64,000 bases of DNA. Origin: Desulforamulus ruminis DSM 2154. GTDB lineage: Bacteria > Bacillota > Desulfotomaculia > Desulfotomaculales > Desulfotomaculaceae. This document shows positions 41,735 to 46,588 of the stretch, one piece after another (within the stretch, counting starts at the first letter, position 1; each line of letters begins with the position of its first letter). Made by a program: the position numbers and the translations under genes. The stretch covers positions 2,306,120-2,370,119 of the forward strand of contig NC_015589.1 in assembly GCF_000215085.1 (NCBI RefSeq), read 5' to 3'. The notes below the pieces were generated by a model that was given only the letters and a program-made list of their open reading frames with translations, did not search any database and was not told where the DNA came from.

Positions 41735-42819
41735 ATGGACAAAAAATATATGAAGATCGCTATTATCGGGGCCGGTCCGGCAGGTTTGGCCTGTGCTCTG
41801 CAGTGTGAAAAACTTGGCGTTATTACGGACCTTTTTGACAGTGATAGCGGTGTTGGTTGGAATTGGCCCTCGGTGATCCTCCTGTTAAATGTTTTTGAAG
41901 TACCCATGGGGGGAGACATCCGGGATTATTTAAGAGATAATTTTAAACTGGATCTGCAACCTCTCTCCAACATTGATAAATTAATTCTTAAGTCCCCCAT
42001 GAGAAAGCCGTCATAAAGGGGAACCTCGGTTATTTCTATCCCCGAGGAAAGCATGAAAATTCTTTGGAAAACCAATTGCGACGCTTATTAAAAACCACGG
42101 CAATCCATTTAAATCGGCCGGCAGACTATCGGGAACTGTCAAAAAAATATGATTATGTGGTGGTAGCCACCGGCAATGAAGCAGTGGCCAAAAACCTAGG
42201 GGTTTGGCAAGAGTATGGGACTGTCTATATTCACAGCGGCTTAGCTGCCGGGGAATTTGATATCCGTACCCAAAGTGTTTATTTTAATACAGCCTATGCC
42301 AAACAAGGGTATGGGAGATTAACACCCATTAGTAACTATCAAGCGGTGGTAGACCTTTACGGTATAGGAATGGATCCATGGGAAATGGACAAAAAATTTC
42401 AACAGTTTCTTGAAACTGAGGGCTTATCCGATTTACAAATGACCTTTAGAATGATTTTGCCGCCCTTCTCAACGGGTAAAATTAAAAAATTTCAAGTGGA
42501 CAATATCTTTTTGGTTGGCAGAGCGGCAGGATTAACCGAAAGACTCACCGGAACAGGGTGCGTCGCCGCATTATCCAGCGGGTTTCTGGCAGCGGAAGCG
42601 ATGATTAAAGAAAAATCCTATGCCGATTTGGTCAAACCTCTACAAGAACATATTGAAAACATTTCATCCTTCAGAAAAATATATGAAAAACTGAATAACG
42701 AGGGCTTAGACAAAATGGTTAAGCTAAGCAGCAACCCTTTGATTAAATTCCCTTTGTATAACTCACCGGTTAGTTTTATGGACATCCTGGGCAGTGCATT
42801 AAAACGGGTTGTCGATTAG
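41735..42819 (+). pseudogene. FAD-dependent oxidoreductase, frameshifted
   Basis: The N-terminal part (MKIAIIGAGPAGLACALQC) has the dinucleotide-binding GxGxxG loop. Translation stops at 42016, but the same protein continues in the +1-shifted frame to 42819 (HEKAVIKGNLGYFYPRGKHEN ... VVVATGNEAVAKNLG, in part). It ends with a typical FAD C-terminal loop FLVGRAAGLTERLTGTGCVAA. The break is at CCCCC (41992-41996 region); adding one C restores the frame and gives about 361 residues. It could be a true pseudogene, a phase-variable tract or a sequencing error. The family is geranylgeranyl-reductase-like flavoproteins, with unknown substrate. Confidence 0.75.
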
Positions 42820-42898: not shown

Positions 42899-43180
42899 TT
42901 ATGCTAATTCCCCTACCAGGATGGTTAAATCGGTAGTGACCTCTCTTAAATCCATTTCCAGAGCCTTTAACAGGCGTTCTTCCGTTGTTCCCCAGGACAA
43001 AGGAGTCATCTGGATCAGGGATTCCATCCATGGTTCTTCCAAAGTGACTCTGTAGCGTAACCGTTCCAGGTTCGAGAGTTTAAACTTACTTTTAAAAATA
43101 TCGAAGGTATTGCGGTGGGAATCCATCTGTTTGTGAGTCTATTCACAAAAAAATATCCCTTAATAATTCCGGTGCTTTTC
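42899..43180 (-). pseudogene. 3' remnant of an rlmA-type rRNA methyltransferase gene
   Basis: About 75 residues in this frame match the C-terminal end of the gene at 45268-46152. Examples are RNTFDIFKSKFKL against RNTMDIFKNKFKL, and WMESLIQMTPLSWGTTEER, identical in both. Similarity continues to about 43180 in another frame, then ends. The two copies differ in many third positions, so the duplication is old. The remnant and the full gene flank the collagen-like gene. Confidence 0.8.
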
Positions 43181-43457
43181 TTTGTCTCTTTTCCCTCTCA
43201 ACTCCTTTTTAAAAACCCTTCTTAATTTTAAAAATGGTACAGTGATTCTCCCTTCTTGCCCTCCGAACTTTTTGTTGCAATGAAGAATTACTATGCCAAC
43301 GATATCAAAAAATTAAAAAGCCTAAATATATTCTTGTAGCCATTAAACAAAATTTTTCATAAATATAGGGTATAGAACTGGCTTTCTTTTCGTCTTAAGC
43401 TTGATCTATATAAAGAGAAAGTATTTTATAAAATTCATTTTATTGAAGGTGATTAGA

Positions 43458-44891
43458 TTGTCTATCAAAACCAGGCTGGTAGCGAATACTCGCCTTTGCT
43501 GTCCTAGACCTACCGGCCCCACCGGGCCTACTGGACCCACTGGAGCTACCGGAGCTGTTGGACCTACCGGGGCCACCGGCGCTATAGGCGTTACTGGTGC
43601 TACCGGACCTGTCGGAGCCGTTGGATCTACCGGTGCCACCGGACCCACCGGAACTGACGGTGCTACCGGGCCCACTGGGCCAGTTGGTCCACAAGGGCCA
43701 ACAGGGCTGCAGGGTGTTCAGGGCGAACCCGGTCCTCAGGGAGCTACTGGCCCACAGGGGGTTCAAGGTGAGTCAGGCCCGCAGGGCATTCAGGGTGAGC
43801 CCGGTCCGCAAGGGCTACAGGGCATTCAGGGTGAGATCGGGCCGCAAGGTATTCAGGGCGAACCTGGCCCGCAAGGACTGCAGGGCATACAGGGCGAACC
43901 CGGCCCACAGGGACCCCAGGGAATCCAAGGTGTGGCCGGTACGGTAGGAACAATCAAAGGCTCATTCAACACATTGGAAGAACTTGAGGCAGCCTATCCT
44001 GTCGGGTCCCCGGGAGACTTCTATTTCATTAATCCTTATCTCTACGTGTGGGACCAGGAAAGCGGCCAATGGATTAATGTAGGGGTAATCGCTGGACCAC
44101 AGGGCATACAAGGGGAACCCGGCCAGCAAGGACCTCAGGGCATGCAAGGAGAAGCTGGCCCACAGGGCCAGCAGGGGCCTCAAGGAATTCAGGGTGAGCC
44201 CGGTATTCAAGGACCGACAGGGCCGCAAGGGATACAAGGCGAACCTGGCGTGCAAGGCATTCAGGGCATACAGGGCGTACCTGGTCCGCAGGGACCGGCC
44301 GGACCACAAGGTGTTCAGGGTGAAGCCGGCATACAAGGGCCAACAGGGCCACAGGGCGTTCAGGGTGAACCCGGCCAGCAAGGACCACAGGGTATACAGG
44401 GCGAGCCTGGGCTGCAGGGTCCGGCTGGTGCGCAAGGGATTCAGGGAGAACCTGGCCCGCAGGGGCCAACCGGACCAGCAGGTACACCAGTAGAAGTATA
44501 TAACTTTAATCTTTCTGCTCCTGGCAGTACCTACAGCGTAGATGTTGGCAGCATCACTTTCGTATTCTCGTATTATAATCCTGTGACTTTACAGCTAACA
44601 ATTCACCCGGCTACTTCCGGTACGACAGTTTTGATGGATTTGAGACGCTTCACTTACTATGACGCCATTGCCGAGGGGCAAATAGCGAATAACTATTTGC
44701 TTACAGGAAATTATTTTGCTGATCAGTATATATACACCCAATCAAACGATTTCCAGAAGTCATGGCTCCGCCAAAGAAATCCGGATACGCTACTATGGTC
44801 ATTGTGTGAATATAGCGTTTTTGCCTCCAGTAACGCGTCGAGGGTCGCATTGTGGATCAATTGGATTTATAGAGATATTGCTTTGCCATAA
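43458..44891 (+). CDS. Collagen-like repeat protein (bacterial collagen, exosporium/phage-fibre-like)
   Basis: From TTG 43458 (AAGGTGA upstream) the protein has 477 residues. A short N-terminus leads into about 47 Gly-X-Y triplets, first GPT/GAT type, then GPQ/GIQ/GEP type. A 50-residue non-collagen module follows, starting [18 protein letters not shown] and containing [15 protein letters not shown]. About 43 more triplets come next, then a 135-residue C-terminal domain (from [12 protein letters not shown]). There is no signal peptide. Thr-rich triplets resemble the glycosylated BclA collagen of spores, while the embedded module resembles phage and tail-fibre proteins. It could be a spore surface filament or a phage-derived fibre. 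Confidence 0.88.
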
Positions 44892-45267: not shown

Positions 45268-46152
45268 CTAATTTCCTCCTACCAGGATGGTTAAATCAAT
45301 GGTAACCTCTCTTAAATCCATTTCTAGAGCTTTGAACCGGCGTTCTTCCGTTGTTCCCCAGGACAAAGGAGTCATCTGGATTAGGGATTCCATCCATGGT
45401 TCGTCCGAAGTGACTCTGTAGCGTAACCGTTCCAGGTCCAAAAGCTTAAACTTATTTTTAAAAATATCCATGGTATTGCGGTTGGAATCCCTTTGTTTAT
45501 GTGCCTGTTCATAAAAAATATCCCTTAATTCCCATAAATGGTTCTTTTCGGGAAGCACCTTAACCACTCTGCCATGGGGAACAAGCATTCTGCCAAACTC
45601 CGCATAATTGGCCGGGGTTAAAACGTTGAGAATAAAATGGAATTGTTCACTGGCCAAGGGAGCCTTGGCCAGATCCCCAACGCACCAAAGGGAGCTGGTG
45701 TATTCCTTGGCCGCCATATAAATACCCTCTTTAGAAATATCCAGACCTACGCCCAAAGGGTCGAGGGCCGAGTTTTGAGTTATTTTCTTTTGTATCCCTG
45801 ATAACAGGGAACCTTCGCCGCAGCCGGCATCTAATATTTTTATCCTTCCTTCTTGGAATTTGCTTTGATCTAGGATTAATTCACTGATTTTTGCCATTAA
45901 AGGTTCAAAAAAACCCTTTCTGCTAATCATTCTTCGGGCTTCAAACATCCGCCGGTGATATTTTGTCTGCAGGCCATGGGGCAGCATGTTTACATAACCC
46001 TGTCTGGACAGATCGTAGCAATGATGATTTTTACAGATCAAACTCTTTACATGAACCAACTTCATTGGACTAAAACAAAGTGGACACCTGAAAACATCTT
46101 CATTTTTCCCAAGGAGGCTGGCATGGCCTCTTTCTCTCTTATTTTTGGACAT
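45268..46152 (-). CDS. rlmA: RlmA-type 23S rRNA (guanine-N1) methyltransferase
   Basis: The roughly 294-residue protein has an N-terminal zinc finger (FRCPLCFSPM ... CKNHHCYDL) and a SAM-binding domain (ILDAGCGEGSLLSG; LGVGLDISKEGI). RlmA enzymes methylate G745 or G748 in 23S hairpin 35, in the exit-tunnel region; the Gram-positive RlmA(II)/TlrB type gives tylosin-type macrolide resistance. I choose ATG 46152 (GGGGTG at 7 nt) rather than the frame start at 46167. Its leader has a terminator and the short ORF MSTHFMRLR, so expression is probably antibiotic-induced. A truncated copy lies at 42899-43180. Confidence 0.88.
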   Translation of the reverse strand: MSKNKRERGHASLLGKNEDVFRCPLCFSPMKLVHVKSLICKNHHCYDLSRQGYVNMLPHGLQTKYHRRMFEARRMISRKGFFEPLMAKISELILDQSKFQEGRIKILDAGCGEGSLLSGIQKKITQNSALDPLGVGLDISKEGIYMAAKEYTSSLWCVGDLAKAPLASEQFHFILNVLTPANYAEFGRMLVPHGRVVKVLPEKNHLWELRDIFYEQAHKQRDSNRNTMDIFKNKFKLLDLERLRYRVTSDEPWMESLIQMTPLSWGTTEERRFKALEMDLREVTIDLTILVGGN

Positions 46153-46186
46153 AAAAAAGCACCCCATTCATTCGTTTTACGTAATG

Positions 46187-46249
46187 AAAAAAGGTACAGC
46201 AAATAAACCCGGCCTCATCAACAAACGGCCGAGCCTATTGATCTGTACC
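46187..46249 (-). terminator. Leader terminator (attenuator) of the rlmA gene
   Basis: On the minus strand, GGTACAG (46243-46249) pairs with CTGTACC (46193-46199) around an inner GGCC-rich hairpin, followed directly by TTTTTT. It sits between the leader ORF and rlmA. The leader ORF region (46258-46281) is largely complementary to the stretch just upstream of rlmA (46157-46186), including the GGGGTG ribosome binding site. Confidence 0.75.
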
Positions 46250-46254
46250 TCACA

Positions 46255-46284
46255 TTACCGTAAACGCATAAAATGGGTGCTCAT
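46255..46284 (-). CDS. Leader peptide MSTHFMRLR
   Basis: This nine-codon ORF (ATG at 46284, TAA stop) has a GAGGAG site 11 nt upstream. The C-terminal MRLR matches the arrest motif of macrolide-sensing leader peptides such as ErmDL (which begins MTHSMRLR), in which ribosomes stall at the Arg-Leu-Arg segment when a macrolide is bound. Stalling here would free the downstream sequence from pairing and permit rlmA expression. It is a proposal from sequence; no experiment is implied. Confidence 0.7.
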   Translation of the reverse strand: MSTHFMRLR

Positions 46285-46330
46285 AATTACAGCTTCTCCT
46301 CATTAAAGAAATAGACCTTATCTTCCGAAT

Positions 46331-46339
46331 AGTATAACA
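46331..46339 (-). promoter_or_regulatory. Possible extended -10 promoter of the rlmA leader
   Basis: The minus strand reads TGTTATACT, an extended -10 (TG-N-TATACT). No good -35 hexamer is visible. The transcript would start near 46324 and include the leader ORF and terminator. Confidence 0.45.
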
Positions 46340-46588
46340 CAAATATCATCTGAAGCTACAGAACAAGGATCTCTTTTTAATTACCGGTATCCACATTTAC
46401 TTCGGAAGGTTGGAGAAGTTACGTCTTTATCCCATTCCACAGAAGGCATTAGCAAAGGATGTCTCAACGGAGGTGAACTCATCTAAACACCTGACACCTG
46501 TAGCAGATTTAAGCATAGACAACGAATCTTTTAAAAGATTAGCCTGATGTTTCCTGAGGCCTGAAATTACCTAAGTGACGTTTCAGGG
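46340..46588. other. Intergenic stretch between the rlmA leader and the lipoprotein cassette
   Basis: I see no convincing gene here. It contains a GGAGGTGAACTCATC stretch with no open frame and a GTTTCCTGAGGCCTGAAAT imperfect palindrome near 46552. It may be decayed accessory or mobile DNA. Confidence 0.4.

Follow-up and report, generated by a model that had tools for sequence, protein, structure and literature searches.

Does the short open reading frame upstream of the rlmA gene of Desulforamulus ruminis DSM 2154 belong to a macrolide-sensing switch, and to which family of switches is it related? The window that we analyzed is a stretch of 64,000 nt from this genome, which is a single contig of 3,969,014 bases. 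A sequence-only reading of the locus had proposed a drug-sensing leader of the ErmDL type in a bacterium from soil or sediment. The habitat is unsupported, given that PMC3569383 lists the rumen as the source of Desulfotomaculum ruminis DL-T.

The rlmA gene lies on the minus strand at 45268-46152. The full reading frame encodes 299 aa; the likely start is the ATG at 46152, yielding a protein of 294 aa, and another in-frame ATG lies at 46167. Profile and sequence matches identify the product as a 23S rRNA guanine-N1 methyltransferase of the RlmA/TlrB type: the protein scores 44.5 bits against Zn_ribbon_RlmA (PF21302; cut-off 27) and its sequence matches the solved structure of RlmA, PDB 1p91, with an E-value of 8e-27. 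The best NCBIfam score, 157 bits, is to the RlmA model (G745), under the equivalog cut-off of 303, and the Erm(32) model (G748) gives 79 bits against a cut-off of 550; since neither cut-off is reached, NCBIfam cannot separate RlmA-I from RlmA-II here. The surroundings hold a remnant of a second rlmA copy 2 kb away (42899-43126, minus strand). It covers roughly the C-terminal 82 residues, shares 80% identity with the full-length copy, and has one stop codon within the match. Between the two copies is a frame for a collagen-like repeat protein (Gly-Pro-Thr, Gly-Pro-Gln; 43401-44891, plus strand), and two adjoining frames at 41735-42819 (plus strand) resemble, on inspection by eye, the halves of a single gene for a flavin-dependent oxidoreductase.

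Reading the minus strand from 46345 to 46150, we find an AGGAG motif, a nine-codon ORF, a hairpin followed by six Ts, and a region complementary to the ORF that includes the Shine-Dalgarno (SD) sequence of rlmA. The ORF (46255-46284; ATGAGCACCCATTTTATGCGTTTACGGTAA) encodes MSTHFMRLR, a short peptide with an R/K-X-R/K ending, here the arrest motif RLR; its own ribosome binding site, which the sequence-only reading had noted, is AGGAG at 46300-46296, 11 nt ahead of the ATG. By analogy, the Leu codon at 46263-46261 is predicted to occupy the P site of a stalled ribosome, and a toeprint is predicted at 46247 ± 1 from the stalling described in PMC6851288. The pattern ATG-CGN-YTN-MGN-TAA occurs once in the whole genome, at this leader; a control with the pattern reversed is found at two places, and the motif by itself is therefore not unusual. 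Upstream of the ORF, the sequence contains a candidate extended -10 promoter element (TG-T-TATACT, 46331-46339, minus strand). Transcription would start near 46324, which would make the leader about 172 nt long, compared with 177 nt for tlrB in B. subtilis (PMC6851288). A simple site scan of 46100-46450 reported no consensus sigma-70-type promoter.

Downstream of the ORF, GGTACAG (46249-46243) pairs with CTGTACC (46199-46193) to form a terminator hairpin (46193-46249, minus strand), followed by the T6 tract at 46187-46192. The site scan missed a minus-strand terminator in 46100-46450, probably because its loop limit is 8 nt and the loop here is 12 nt. The GG at 46249-46248 closes the hairpin, and the predicted ribosome edge at 46247 is the T just after it. 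Within the hairpin, TTATTT (46201-46206, minus strand) matches the NusG pause motif TTNTTT as defined in PMC12288461, where only a small fraction of such motifs is reported to pause strongly; it sits where the B. subtilis tlrB leader has its T-rich pause region. The ORF arm at 46282-46258 pairs with 46186-46158 on the minus strand, and this 3' arm of an SD-sequestering helix contains the rlmA SD, GGGGTG (46165-46160).

These pairings exceed chance in computed folds. A segment of 181 nt folds at -65 kcal/mol (z = -5.8; none of 200 shuffles is as low), and the terminator part alone has a z-score of -6.3. Both the hairpin with its T6 tail and the pairing of the ORF region over the rlmA ribosome binding site, which the sequence-only reading had seen, are present, and the fold together with the pair counts given below supports an SD-masking hairpin ahead of the methyltransferase gene. 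The same reading had treated the two as alternative hairpins; the minimum-energy fold instead is one long hairpin in which the terminator is nested within the SD-sequestering helix. Rfam gave no match at gathering score within the window.

It had also been claimed that such leaders are known for erm genes and that RlmA-II enzymes are usually constitutive. There is a published precedent: yxjB of B. subtilis encodes an RlmA-II, is induced by tylosin, and was renamed tlrB, with both ribosome stalling and attenuation described (Yakhnin et al, 2019, PMC6851288). That work includes an alignment of 180 leader peptides, predicted ahead of tlrB homologues and ending in R/K-X-R/K; its main text contains no mention of Desulfo-, Paenibacillus, Clostrid- or RLR. 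The window leader resembles that of B. subtilis (PMC6851288) in the order of its parts, in a 9-aa peptide ending in R-X-R (MIIQFIRYR there), and in the RlmA-II-type gene, as well as in the terminator base that the stalled ribosome would cover, the SD-masking hairpin around the terminator, and a TTNTTT motif in the place of the T-rich pause region. It differs in that the window peptide has RLR and STHFM rather than RYR and IIQFI, so the inducing drug may differ; in addition, the host is a sulphate reducer, and the SD pairing is longer.

We conclude that this is very likely (a probability of about 0.87) a TlrB-type ribosome-stalling leader RNA ahead of an RlmA-II-type methyltransferase gene. When no drug is present, ribosomes would complete and release the leader peptide, and most transcripts would stop at the T6 terminator; in those that read through, one long hairpin would mask the rlmA ribosome binding site. 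A macrolide-bound ribosome would stall when Leu8 of MSTHFMRLR occupies the P site and Arg9 the A site, so that its edge, at about 46247, covers both the GG at the terminator base and the 5' arm of the masking helix. Transcription would then continue and rlmA would be translated; this single ribosome position would explain read-through and translation together. A NusG-type pause at TTATTT probably lets the ribosome arrive in time. RlmA would methylate 23S rRNA (at G748, by homology), weaken the binding of tylosin-like macrolides, and thereby turn the switch off. Our evidence comprises the anatomy of the leader, its conservation and covariation, its homology to B. subtilis-type leaders, and its association with resistance genes; from these we infer stalling, induction, pausing, the methylated base, and the inducing drug in D. 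ruminis. The core of the earlier claim, a macrolide-arrest-type leader that controls an RlmA-type methyltransferase, is very probably right, given the anatomy and the recurrence of the leader in the genus.

We followed this recurrence with two covariance models. R1 was built from nine leaders, including those of the window and three genus relatives. R2 was built from 16 rlmA leaders of the Bacillus and Paenibacillaceae type only, with family labels assigned by identity with named loci or with closely similar leaders, and the genus of the window was left out to avoid circularity. R2 matches 46283-46160 of the minus strand, the entire TlrB-type element, with an E-value of 6.6e-19 in the window and 4.1e-17 in the 3.97-Mb genome. 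This is the sole strong place in the genome. Apart from it, R2 matches the opposite strand of this near-palindrome (1.9e-3) and two further places with E-values above 5. Among the eight other genomes of the genus, three (G002, G005, G008) have an rlmA match at an E-value of 1e-70 or better, and all three carry the leader with an RLR-ending ORF, a recurrence that the sequence-only reading had suggested as a check. The genus peptides are MSTHFMRLR in the window, VIIQFIRLR twice and VNTQFMRLR once; the rlmA of G008 reads just 204 aa. Of the remaining five genomes, one of the five being 72% complete, four have no match and one has a weak match (E = 7e-4) that is likely another methyltransferase. 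Two weak matches with E-values of about 5e-4 (L008, L009) are likewise probably other methyltransferases. Taken together with the six Bacillus erm loci described below, this sequence-structure homology places the window element with the TlrB leaders and not with the ErmDL leaders.

What genes stand behind this element elsewhere? We took all sense-strand R1 matches from five genome sets, one per place, yielding 195 elements (139 + 56); antisense matches of these near-palindromic elements were left out of all counts. The next gene is rlmA in 141 cases, erm in 24, an alpha/beta macrolide esterase in 18, mph in seven, mef in two, and a relict or other gene in three. The genes were labeled by their BLAST matches to a set of five references. 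These are the window RlmA, L100 (which exceeds the NCBIfam Erm cut-off), L102 (which exceeds the NCBIfam macrolide-esterase cut-off), and L105 and L311, which are best matched to Mef(B) and Mph(C), respectively, and are both under the exception cut-offs. The rlmA count comprises 111 + 28 genes found by BLAST plus L130, whose locus is cut by a contig end, and L293, whose rlmA starts further down; the erm count comprises 15 genes, the frameshifted L198 and eight more, and the esterase count 8 + 10. The seven mph genes are 63-100% identical to L311. The three remaining loci are L231, L303 and L315; at L231 an O-methyltransferase gene is next and the leader has no start codon. Thus a macrolide-resistance kind of gene follows 192 of the 195 elements, counting broken genes, some of which are truncated. 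This proportion argues against chance, though a few chance hits may be among the weak matches, whose E-values reach 1e-3 per genome. Judged from the sequences, the sharing of one leader RNA by rlmA, erm, esterase, mph and mef genes is the unexpected result of this analysis; we found no earlier report of a leader shared among these gene kinds in the openly licensed PMC full texts.

The peptide ending is conserved across these elements. Codons for RXR or RXK, with a stop immediately behind them or one residue later, occur in 190 of 195 (a start codon was not required); the exceptions are L105, L130, L236, L285 and L303, of which L130 lacks the necessary sequence. Across the 133 distinct ends, every one of the six Arg codons and a single Lys codon appear at the last position. 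The persistence of the motif together with the use of all six Arg codons points to selection on the peptide. The most frequent ends are IRLR (60), IRYR (27), IRIR (11), MRLR (10) and IRFR (8), with others making up the remainder.

The RNA structure is conserved as well. From the first 139 elements we hand-picked a spread of 67 and aligned them with MAFFT. RNAalifold on this alignment recovered just the 8-pair terminator base; the SD helix was named by hand from a smaller alignment (A3) and then counted on the 67, so the result leans on that choice. With the named structure of 23 pairs, 91.8% of cells are paired, compared with 89.5 ± 0.3% in shuffles that leave the relatedness among elements in place (0 of 500 as high) and 30-52% when the structure is slid along the alignment. 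Two-sided changes occur at 10 pairs, compared with 5.8 in shuffles (1 of 500 as high), and in 43 cells compared with 12.1; they include the terminator. The SD helix and the terminator are paired in 92% and 98% of cells, respectively, in rlmA elements, 90% and 94% in erm elements, 75% and 80% in esterase elements, and 79% and 67% in the mef element. Fold z-scores below -3 were obtained for all 46 rlmA and all 14 erm elements, for two of six esterase elements, and for the one mef element; the esterase structures are weaker, and three of the six lack a run of four Ts. TTNTTT is found at the same position in 62 of 67 elements, and a T run of at least four follows the terminator in 59; the exceptions are four rlmA elements (one of them from G008), three esterase elements and one mef element.

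We also computed the cost of opening the SD by equilibrium folding. In the window it falls from 16.7 to 5.3 kcal/mol when the part covered by the ribosome is removed; the SD then is still partly paired, with the 3' arm of the terminator and the T tract as partner. A drop of at least 4 kcal/mol is seen in three of 46 rlmA elements (L093, L095, L097), five of 14 erm elements, and none of the six esterase elements or the one mef element; the other 43 rlmA elements, those of Bacillus included, show a smaller drop or none at equilibrium. Since no Bacillus rlmA element drops by 4 kcal/mol or more, though the switch is proven in one Bacillus species, this calculation has no power either way. Judging from the window folds, the small drops seem to be explained by pairing of the freed terminator arm and T tract, CCTTTTTTCATT, with the ribosome binding site, AATGAATGGGG. 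Within 46257-46158 (minus strand), and also in the aligned elements, the stop-codon region TAATGTGAGG looks like the ribosome binding site region, and the terminator 3' arm with the T tract is able to pair with either look-alike.

Could the RNA instead descend from the MTHSMRLR leaders of the ErmDL, ErmK and MefL type and have been captured later by rlmA? The MRLR end and the preceding T-H of the window peptide do resemble MTHSMRLR of ErmD/K and MTASMRLR of Mef (PMC4335068), and the R1 matches include intermediates: LITHFMRLR and LITHYMRLR before erm and LTHSMRLR before mef. The ErmD/ErmK leaders also arrest with the Leu codon in the P site and Arg next, as predicted for the window, and have attenuation by a terminator (PMC4335068, PMC8298421). 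For mef(E)/mel, a short leader of the RLR kind goes together with attenuation of a macrolide-resistance gene at the level of transcription (PMC4335068). The bodies of the ErmD/ErmK and window peptides differ, however, and the ErmD/ErmK leader as described in these sources is longer, has more hairpins, and precedes erm rather than rlmA; mef(E)/mel has its own 327-base region with an anti-attenuator (PMC4335068). R1 matched none of six Bacillus erm loci at E-values up to 1 (of seven places over the cut-off, one was without a locus), and four of the six have MTHSMRLRFPTLNQ or ...NR, beginning about 390 nt upstream. For the mef(A) leader of phage phi1605, a single example, R1 scored 19.2 bits (E = 0.0022 in 3 kb), and this weak match falls outside the leader ORF. 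In addition, two of the three genus relatives have VIIQFIRLR, and the R2 match already points to tlrB leaders. An ErmDL origin is thus highly improbable, and we rejected it on the absence of R1 matches at the six Bacillus erm loci and the weak, misplaced match in the one phage leader. The ErmDL-type motif proposed by the sequence-only reading holds for the peptide end and fails for kinship of the RNA.

Two other explanations accept the TlrB-type anatomy and dispute its role. The terminator and the ribosome binding site hairpin could act without drug sensing, as a constitutive or growth-phase attenuator, with an ORF that is incidental or that senses translation generally, for example how much arginine is available or whether a ribosome inhibitor of any kind is present. 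In B. subtilis, transcription doubles once the terminator is disrupted, even when no drug is added (PMC6851288, table 1). The selection on the RXR/RXK codons (190 of 195 elements, with all six Arg codons) and the five different kinds of macrolide-resistance genes behind the element make this quite unlikely. It is also conceivable that the element is a relict, its gene accessory and decaying and its switch no longer of consequence in this lineage. Several features fit: rlmA is patchy in the genus, with the three of eight genomes described above, one of them with the 204-aa protein; a broken, C-terminal second copy lies 2 kb off; and rlmA is truncated after the leaders of G053 and G504 and nearly gone in G941. 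The window gene, in contrast, is full length, its zinc ribbon and C-terminal part are intact, and its leader is complete and keeps all elements, so a relict is the most remote of these readings. By its sequence, the TlrB-type leader of the window is well built and conserved; with the tlrB precedent of B. subtilis, the novelty that the sequence-only reading had claimed for it falls away.

R1 found the element in five of 113 genomes of the class, eight of 398 of the phylum and 25 of 80 of the G389 family at an E-value of 0.01, and in 94 of 295 genomes of the G132 family and 55 of 398 of the G389 class at 0.001; these five sets overlap, and the strict search filters lose weak matches. Of the 17 class genomes that have an RlmA match, four carry it; G053, whose rlmA is truncated, carries it as well. 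In the phylum sample, it accompanies rlmA in six of 43 genomes with an RlmA match, and in one of the six (G334) this rlmA is a fragment, so many rlmA genes are without a detectable element. The leader is absent from the nearest RlmA relative, in Pelotomaculum (65% identical), and from order relatives with a close RlmA, such as Pelotomaculum L010, the similar L049, and L051 of G060. We placed the window protein on a quick tree of 88 RlmA proteins (about every third G132-family gene, ten from Bacillus, and relatives that lack the leader). There it groups with members of its own order in a 9-row clade (SH-aLRT 99), nested in a 23-row set (SH-aLRT 98) that includes leader-bearing Paenibacillaceae-type genes; many other forks are open, and leader presence needs at least nine changes on this tree. 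Searches reaching down to about 65-70% identity found no match for the window leader in plasmids and phages, and none for one erm leader and one mph leader in plasmids.

Considering these results together, we think it fairly likely that the element is a portable macrolide-sensing RNA cassette of Bacillota, consisting of an RXR peptide, a terminator and a hairpin that masks the ribosome binding site, placed before at least five unrelated kinds of genes (rlmA, erm, EstT-type esterase, mph, mef). Both the body of the peptide and the middle residue of RXR would probably be tuned to the drugs that each gene defeats, with MSTHFMRLR as one tuned version, perhaps for erythromycin-type plus tylosin-type drugs. 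The RLR and the body STHFM differ from the peptide tested in B. subtilis, whose RYR leader responds to tylosin and not to the erythromycin levels tried (PMC6851288). In ErmDL, RLR is required for arrest with telithromycin and less so with erythromycin, for which the N-terminal part of the peptide matters (PMC8298421). Because MSTHFMRLR joins RLR to an ErmDL-like T-H-x-M body, one may guess by analogy that its drug range is wider or different. The window extends a switch proven in Bacillus to an anaerobic sulphate reducer from the rumen, and the sharing across gene kinds matters more than the window element itself: because unrelated resistance genes of several kinds share one homologous RNA, a search for this RNA might uncover inducible macrolide resistance. 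The natural panel of peptides, with ends such as IRLR, IRYR, IRIR and MRLR, also lends itself directly to studying how individual residues determine the macrolide that causes stalling.

Some individual loci show departures from the usual arrangement. Leaders stand ahead of truncated or almost deleted rlmA genes at L095 (G053), L120 (G504), L094 (G008) and L303 (G941), and L303 has, in addition, a change at the motif's first Arg. In the order of the window, L052-L054 (G094, G092, G091) are decayed-looking leaders ahead of rlmA: L053 has an R1 E-value of 0.009 and FIRLR codons with no usable start codon seen, and L052 and L054 have no R1 match. C-terminal fragments of rlmA occur in G103 and G104. 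In Paenibacillus sp. HB172176 (L013, 1438-1492), the leader has an internal deletion that brings its Ile-Arg codons directly up to the T tract; the remainder of RXR is lost, as are the stop codon and the terminator. L236 (G691) has the same letters on a contig of equal length. This is possibly a natural constitutive form.
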